A stretch of 64,000 nucleotides of DNA from Nodosilinea sp. FACHB-141. Its GTDB lineage: Bacteria > Cyanobacteriota > Cyanobacteriia > Phormidesmidales > Phormidesmidaceae. The notes under the pieces were generated by a model, which ran no database searches, was not told where the DNA came from, and worked only from the letters and a program-made list of their open reading frames with translations. The translations under genes were made by a program, and so were the position numbers. The stretch is taken from positions 744,001 to 808,000 of the forward strand of contig NZ_JACJPP010000011.1 of NCBI RefSeq assembly GCF_014696135.1. Reading direction: 5' to 3'. Positions 16,218-16,590 of the stretch are shown here, piece by piece (positions within the stretch are counted from its first letter, which is position 1; each line of letters starts with the position of its first letter).

Positions 16218-16290
16218 GGGCGATTAGCTCAGTTGGTAGAGCGCCTGCCTTACAAGCAGGATGTCACTGGTTCGAGTCCAGTATCGCCCA
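16218..16290 (+). tRNA. tRNA-Val (anticodon UAC)
   Basis: A 73-nt cloverleaf: acceptor stem GGGCGAT pairs with ATCGCCC (16283-16289), discriminator A at 16290, anticodon stem CCTGC/GCAGG around loop CTTACAA, which gives anticodon TAC at 16251-16253, and a GGTTCGAGTCC T-arm. No CCA is encoded. This gene is the attachment target of the transposon: a PAM and protospacer lie inside it and the transposon begins 8 bp after its last base. The tRNA sequence is left intact. Confidence 0.97.
16235..16255 (+). other. homing target in tRNA-Val: GGTA PAM plus 17-nt protospacer
   Basis: GGTA at 16235-16238 fits the Cas12k PAM preference (GTN/NGTN). The following 17 bases, 16239-16255, spanning the D-arm to anticodon loop, are identical to the 5' part of a spacer on the minus strand at 16553-16537. 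The element boundary at 16298 is 60 bp beyond the last PAM base, inside or at the edge of the insertion range known for V-K systems. Confidence 0.9.
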
Positions 16291-16297
16291 TGTCTGT

Positions 16298-16420
16298 TGT
16301 ACGTTCGCACGCTAAATGTCGCGATTCGCAGATTAGCGTCGTTTTTCGCACAATCATGTCGCTTTAGGGGAAACCTGGTAATCCTACAAGCAAAATTGCG
16401 ATTCGCAAATTATGTGTCGC
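16298..16420. repeat. transposon end with TnsB-site-like repeats
   Basis: The end begins TGTACG and holds two exact copies of GCGATTCGCA (16321-16330 and 16398-16407), each followed by a related AT-rich tail ending in GTCG or TGTCGC. Two further ATGTCGC words lie around 16316 and 16357. Repeated short motifs of this kind are TnsB binding sites in V-K ends. Exact site boundaries need comparison with the other end. Confidence 0.75.
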
Positions 16421-16432
16421 AGATAACTCATT

Positions 16433-16468
16433 AAAAAAGCGGATTCAATATATTTATTGGATCCGCTT
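16433..16468 (-). terminator. intrinsic terminator of the CRISPR/homing transcript
   Basis: On the minus strand a 14-bp stem (AAGCGGATCCAATA with AT-rich loop, one G-U type mismatch to its partner arm) at 16468-16437 runs directly into TTTTTT (16438-16433). It lies between the homing spacer and the transposon end, so it would stop the crRNA precursor before the element boundary and the tRNA gene. Confidence 0.8.
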
Positions 16469-16536
16469 ATTGAAAAATAGACTTTTTAAAATTCTGTTCG
16501 CAGTGGTTTTGAAATGAACTGCCATAGCCCCCTTAG

Positions 16537-16590
16537 TTGTAAGGCAGGCGCTCCTTTCAACCCTCCATGTAAGCTTAGTCTATGAGTCCT
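16537..16590 (-). CRISPR. delocalised homing unit: atypical repeat plus tRNA-matching spacer
   Basis: Read on the minus strand, an atypical repeat ends GGAGGGTTGAAAG at 16554. Upstream of that it has lost similarity to the array repeats. It is followed by a spacer whose first 17 bases, GAGCGCCTGCCTTACAA (16553-16537), equal the tRNA-Val protospacer; base 18 mismatches. Such short-match homing guides with aberrant repeats have been described for CAST elements. The unit sits between the array and the terminator at 16433-16468. Confidence 0.88.

Follow-up and report, generated by a model that had tools for sequence, protein, structure and literature searches.

A very probable tRNA-Val-directed homing guide of a divergent type V-K CAST in Nodosilinea sp. 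FACHB-141

Beside a tRNA-Val(UAC) gene of Nodosilinea sp. FACHB-141, a truncated CRISPR repeat (R*) and a 17-nt spacer form what is, with high probability, the homing (anchor) guide unit of a type V-K CAST, the guide directing insertion of the element next to that tRNA. The unit lies in a window of 64,000 nucleotides, which is the whole stretch of DNA analysed here. Guides of this kind are already known; the element adds a further member, from a divergent V-K clade, and its guide offers a clean, well-controlled case of RNA-guided homing there.

The guide unit and its element

The attachment site is a tRNA-Val(UAC) gene with anticodon TAC (16218-16290, plus strand; ARAGORN; Rfam RF00005, 77.2 bits) that reads toward the element. 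Exact copies of the 17-mer GAGCGCCTGCCTTACAA occur within this gene as the protospacer (16239-16255, plus strand), which runs from the D-arm through the anticodon, and on the minus strand as the homing spacer (16537-16553), so that the match proposed by the initial annotation is confirmed. Identity ends after these 17 nt, the spacer continuing with CTAAGG and the protospacer with GCAGGA. Allowing up to three mismatches, these were still the only two copies in the window; the same threshold gave a mean of 0.29 in shuffled controls, where 3 of 100 shuffles had two or more. Immediately 5' of the protospacer, in the D-loop of the tRNA, is the PAM GGTA (16235-16238, plus strand), which includes the conserved GG of this loop. 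The left end of the transposon begins with TGTACG at 16298, the 60th nucleotide past the PAM with 59 bp between, at the distance first noted, and extends with TnsB-site-like repeats to an approximate inner limit at 16440. The insertion point is just outside the tRNA gene, which is intact.

Directly upstream of the homing spacer and on the same strand is R* (GGAGGGTTGAAAG; 16554-16566, minus strand), which corresponds to the 3' part of the CRISPR repeat. This unit stands apart from a small minus-strand array of two repeats and one spacer: repeat 1 (16698-16726), a spacer of about 43 nt (16654-16697), which had no match in a plasmid collection, and repeat 2 (16628-16653), which is degenerate at its 3' end (GGGTTGAGCAA). 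Between the array and cas12k, a putative tracrRNA region (16830-17326, minus strand; limits approximate) was placed by complementarity and by the position downstream of cas12k published for V-K CASTs in the available text of PMC9938897; no Rfam model matched it. It contains the anti-repeat AACCCTCC (16942-16935, minus strand), a perfect complement of GGAGGGTT in R*.

The effector gene cas12k (17327-19315, minus strand; 662 aa from ATG) was recognised by PADLOC (Cas12k, 1.4e-214), NCBIfam (NF038191, 707 bits) and Cas12k chains in the PDB (3.6e-124). On the other side of the element, and also on the minus strand, are tniQ (60890-61426; TniQ chains in PDB, 2.7e-54), tnsC (61442-62281; TniB/AAA; ShTnsC in PDB, 2e-29) and tnsB (62283-64000, continuing to window-equivalent 64157; Mu-transpos_C; TnsB chains in PDB, 2.3e-111). 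A Pfam scan of the window's 27 larger ORFs found no TnsA. Among solved structures, the closest relatives of Cas12k, TniQ, TnsC and TnsB are chains of ShCAST structures, all four core proteins being homologous to those of this Scytonema hofmanni system. Because of these matches, the element is, on sequence grounds, a type V-K CAST. Its other features agree: TnsB, TnsC and TniQ are present together by Pfam and PDB matches, the putative tracrRNA and the array share the strand of cas12k and lie between that gene and the left end, and both transposon ends begin with TGT in inverted orientation. The Cas12k protein aligned at 36-40% identity with 13 V-K Cas12k proteins of other genera, and in a tree of 52 tips it formed a clade on a long stem with four siblings.

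The passages of PMC9938897 available describe V-K elements whose left end follows a tRNA that points toward the transposon, with an anchor unit consisting of an R* of about 12 nt and a spacer of usually 17 nt, a GTN PAM, and 46-82 nt from PAM to left end. The window unit, beside the left end, is the same as these published units in R*, 17-nt spacer, tRNA orientation, PAM and spacing, and the guide itself differs in nothing described there. The order cas12k-tracrRNA-array, with tnsB-tnsC-tniQ on the other side, is likewise as published in that text. According to the sections of the review PMC11406308 at hand, V-K attachment-site guides are almost always truncated and set apart, tRNA genes make up most of the attachment sites, and the site can vary even among close relatives. 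The available part of PMC8649781 likewise lists a delocalized repeat and spacer among the marks of CASTs. The same sections of PMC11406308 report that type I-F3 CASTs likewise have a separate guide category for their chromosomal attachment site, but with another effector and with sites that are mostly guaC, yciA, ffs and rsmJ rather than tRNA genes.

We infer from this arrangement that the minus-strand R* and spacer, which follow the tracrRNA and the array, are transcribed into a short crRNA. This crRNA would begin within R* (16566-16554) and not at GAGCGCC in the spacer, where the initial annotation had placed its start. The R* part would pair with the anti-repeat of the tracrRNA and load Cas12k, which would then read the PAM in the tRNA D-loop and the 17 nt through the anticodon. 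Cas12k would assemble TniQ and TnsC downstream, and TnsB would join the left end about 60 bp from the PAM, outside the tRNA, which would thereby be left intact. The present insertion would itself have been made with the window guide.

Guides and target tRNAs across Cas12k loci

We surveyed 96 Cas12k loci, comprising the best 80 of 162 genome-contig loci, the window, and 15 loci of the same genus, and took the best-matching repeat-spacer unit of each locus as its homing unit. In 69 of the 96, this unit had a downstream match with at most four mismatches; the other 27 had no such unit, some of them because the contig ends. The match was inside an ARAGORN tRNA in 59 of the 69 and not in an ARAGORN tRNA for the remaining 10. 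Most of the 59 tRNA-matching units were exact (42 with no mismatch, 15 with one, and two with two). All 59 tRNAs read toward the element and all 59 protospacers had an xGTx PAM, neither property having been used in selecting the loci.

Could the match simply reflect conservation of tRNA sequence, such that any tRNA fragment would give one? tRNAs do have a conserved D-arm, and a search of the host genome with up to two mismatches did find one further match, with two mismatches, within tRNA-Ala(TGC) (C31:3339-3355). The same search found exact copies at the protospacer and the guide only. Moreover, 252 other repeat-spacer units from 58 loci, each counted once and compared with the same DNA, never had fewer than four mismatches, and guides swapped to loci at other tRNAs reached two or fewer mismatches in only 12 of 3206 pairs. 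Chance similarity among tRNAs is thus an extremely improbable explanation.

The matches share further regularities that fit a homing guide. Guide-target mismatches are PAM-distal, with 14 of 16 at positions 10-17 (34 unique pairs; binomial p about 0.001), the pattern expected of a PAM-proximal seed. Protospacers begin at tRNA nucleotides 18-24, just past the GG of the D-loop, in 45 of the 59 loci, and the 17 nt include the whole anticodon in 39, part of it in nine and none of it in 11. With a loosely defined TGTAC-like end motif, 50 of the 59 loci had one and nine had none; in 37 of these 50 the first such motif is 55-66 nt past the PAM, the distances ranging over 29-99 nt. A conserved tRNA feature would in this way supply the PAM, and retargeting would need only a new 17-mer, which offers a simple reason for the recurrence of tRNA genes and of 17 nt.

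Finding the same spacer at unrelated sites had been named as evidence against a homing guide, and this refuting outcome did not appear. Across the 96 loci, all six carriers of the window guide are at tRNA-Val(UAC): the window, the sibling species G007 and G008, Nodosilinea nodulosa PCC 7104, Leptolyngbya FACHB-321, and Nostoc JL33, whose copy has one mismatch. On the Cas12k tree the tRNA-Val(UAC) address accounts for four changes, with its carriers in four places; one of the six loci (L215) is on a long branch. The 17 target labels together require 29 changes over the 52 tips, so that address switching is frequent. This tree is without seven of the 59 loci (L143, L145, L146, L186, L194, L195 and L198), from which no single long frame was extracted.

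The comparison of sibling elements, also proposed at the outset, came out in the same direction, as near-identical left ends at other tRNAs carry guides fitting those tRNAs. A sibling at tRNA-Thr(CGT) (G019:C7) has an exact guide and nearly the same left end, and two siblings at tRNA-Ala(CGC) (G019:C6 and G004:C33) have guides with one mismatch, again with nearly the same left end. One locus, G020:C26, does not conform: a Thr guide is found beside a broken tRNA-Thr, with three mismatches and no PAM. In G019 the tRNA-Val site is empty, the tRNA being followed by about 98 bp and then by DNA matching the right flank, with the element absent.

These data also bear on the possibility that causation ran the other way: the element would have arrived by other means, or been inherited, and the 17 nt would later have been copied from the neighbouring tRNA, making the match a record of location. 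Homing spacers are not known to have a described acquisition route. Three sibling species (G000, the host of the window, with G007 and G008) carry this guide at one and the same tRNA, and the present insertion may hence be inherited from an ancestor that G000 shared with G007 and G008. What speaks against such later copying is that all 59 loci have an xGTx PAM on the expected side and a tRNA reading toward the element, together with the spacing of the loosely defined end motif. Saito 2021 is reportedly the original source for integration through anchor protospacers, and Hsieh & Peters 2021 is said to be a further source on V-K anchor or homing spacers. Experimental support for integration through tRNA-matching anchor protospacers is cited in the available text of PMC9938897 (the CvkR paper). 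We consider later copying very unlikely, if less remote than a chance match, and retain the reading of the unit as a guide that directs insertion.

Pairing of R* and array repeats with the tracrRNA

We compared the last 14 nt of each R* with the region downstream of cas12k, scoring perfect complements. A complement of at least 8 nt was found in 41 of the 59 loci, compared with 4.0% of 2360 shuffled R* sequences; the remaining 18 R* had no complement of at least 8 nt downstream of cas12k. The partners differ between lineages and hence co-vary, the window pair being replaced by GGTGGATT/AATCCACC in PCC 7104 and by GAGAGAGTT/AACTCTCTC in Leptolyngbya FACHB-321.

No array repeat was found in three of the 59 loci, so that R* and array repeat could be compared in 56; as these loci are related, the counts given here are not independent. 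Contiguous pairing with the tracrRNA region was longer for R* in 48 loci, equal in six and shorter in two. Among the 49 loci with two or more distinct array repeats, which exclude the window because only one of its array repeats has an intact 3' end, the corresponding numbers were 42, five and two. By duplex energy over a 10-nt core, R* was better in 39 of the 56 loci, worse in 16 and equal in one (33, 15 and one among the 49). Grouping Cas12k at 60% identity, R* was better on average in eight of nine clusters, and in six of the seven loci that could not be clustered. Conversely, over 36 nt the array repeat was the stronger partner in 41 of the 56 loci. From these run-length and energy comparisons, R* looks like a short but perfect partner and the array repeat like a long but imperfect one.

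Tentatively, and as a possibility that we rate somewhat below even, V-K guides may be sorted by repeat pairing, with a short and perfect R*, a longer array repeat mismatched in its core, and a tracrRNA tuned to homing. The core mismatch of array repeats may perhaps reflect a second demand on them, compatibility with the adaptation machinery by which the host acquires new spacers. Sorting of this kind, if true, would explain the private, constant homing pathway of one Cas12k beside a changing array. If the asymmetry holds, guide categories would follow a rule open to testing, and repeats for V-K genome insertion could be designed better. We found no report of it in the Cas12k and tracrRNA literature searched, which included the available text of PMC9938897, and the available part of PMC9876797, on the holo-complex, does not mention it. 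The asymmetry is possibly new, but may well be known.

Transposon ends, cargo and other CAST traces

The right end was identified from a perfect 39-bp repeat of the left terminus in inverted orientation at C11:839815-839853 (window-equivalent 95815-95853). The element is thus 79.6 kb long, with its right end 31.9 kb beyond the window. A 5-bp target-site duplication is usual for V-K CASTs, though not defining. Here the 5 bp before the left end (TCTGT) and after the right end (TCGTC) differ, and the idea that the duplication is still intact was dropped. The DNA around the right junction is similar to an older CAST left end, and this junction differs in G008; by eye, the DNA outside the right end resembles the left end of another CAST type in PCC 7104, which suggests repeated use of tRNA-Val(UAC). 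The initial interpretation of the site as one of RNA-guided insertion is supported. Its description as a complete, readable record is too strong, since no target duplication remains, the right end lies well beyond the window, and the insertion is perhaps inherited.

In G008 the same core and flanks are present (87-94% identical), with the right end at C1:851199, and the cargo differs from that of G000 except for one acetyltransferase-like gene. The right end is 304 and 309 bp from the tnsB start in the siblings G004 and G019, as opposed to 31.7 kb in G000. Both G000 and G008 have a split right end, broken at the same TnsB-site-like sequence. The two pieces are at window-equivalent 64157-64243 and 95626-95853 in G000, and the split right end of G008 spans G008:C1 810340-851199. 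Between the pieces are 31.4 kb in G000 and 40.5 kb in G008, which form a second cargo bay. Contractile-tail genes are found in both: those of G000 encode eCIS-core and Pvc16-like proteins, those of G008 sheath, baseplate J and baseplate V proteins. Common content of the two bays was rejected, as they shared no DNA match of at least 150 bp and only three weak protein matches. Such a second bay, holding contractile-tail genes and dividing the right end, is possibly new; in the literature searched, as far as its text was available, Cas12k and contractile injection appeared together only in a gene-editing review.

Within the window, the cargo includes DISARM genes at 20175-57985 (DrmD, DrmMI, DrmA, DrmB and DrmC), interrupted by other genes, among them an IetS/IetA pair at 38628-42151. 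Beside tniQ is a tyrosine recombinase (59616-60512), the C-terminal part of which is 91% identical in G008. As V-K elements are otherwise said to be without a site-specific recombinase (available sections of PMC11406308), this gene could have a role in cointegrate resolution. Just upstream of cas12k is a perfect 32-bp palindrome (19363-19394), and an 86-aa ORF (19465-19725), divergent from cas12k, occupies the usual place of V-K regulators.

Further CAST traces were found in the host and its relatives. A 54.5-kb stretch at tRNA-Val in G020 (C37 135640-190094) has both CAST ends and large NRPS genes, with no cas12k, tniQ, tnsC or tnsB by tblastn at 1e-3, and is a possible non-autonomous or decayed CAST island. 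In Chlorogloea sp. CCALA 695, two Cas12k genes (L167 and L185) are about 18 kb apart on one contig (NZ_PVWN01000012.1). The guide of L185 is that used elsewhere for tRNA-Pro(CGG) and has no close match in the downstream DNA, and tRNA-Pro(CGG) is located downstream of L167; the pair is possibly a tandem insertion. The host genome itself contains a second, broken Cas12k fragment at G000:C16 38434-38823.
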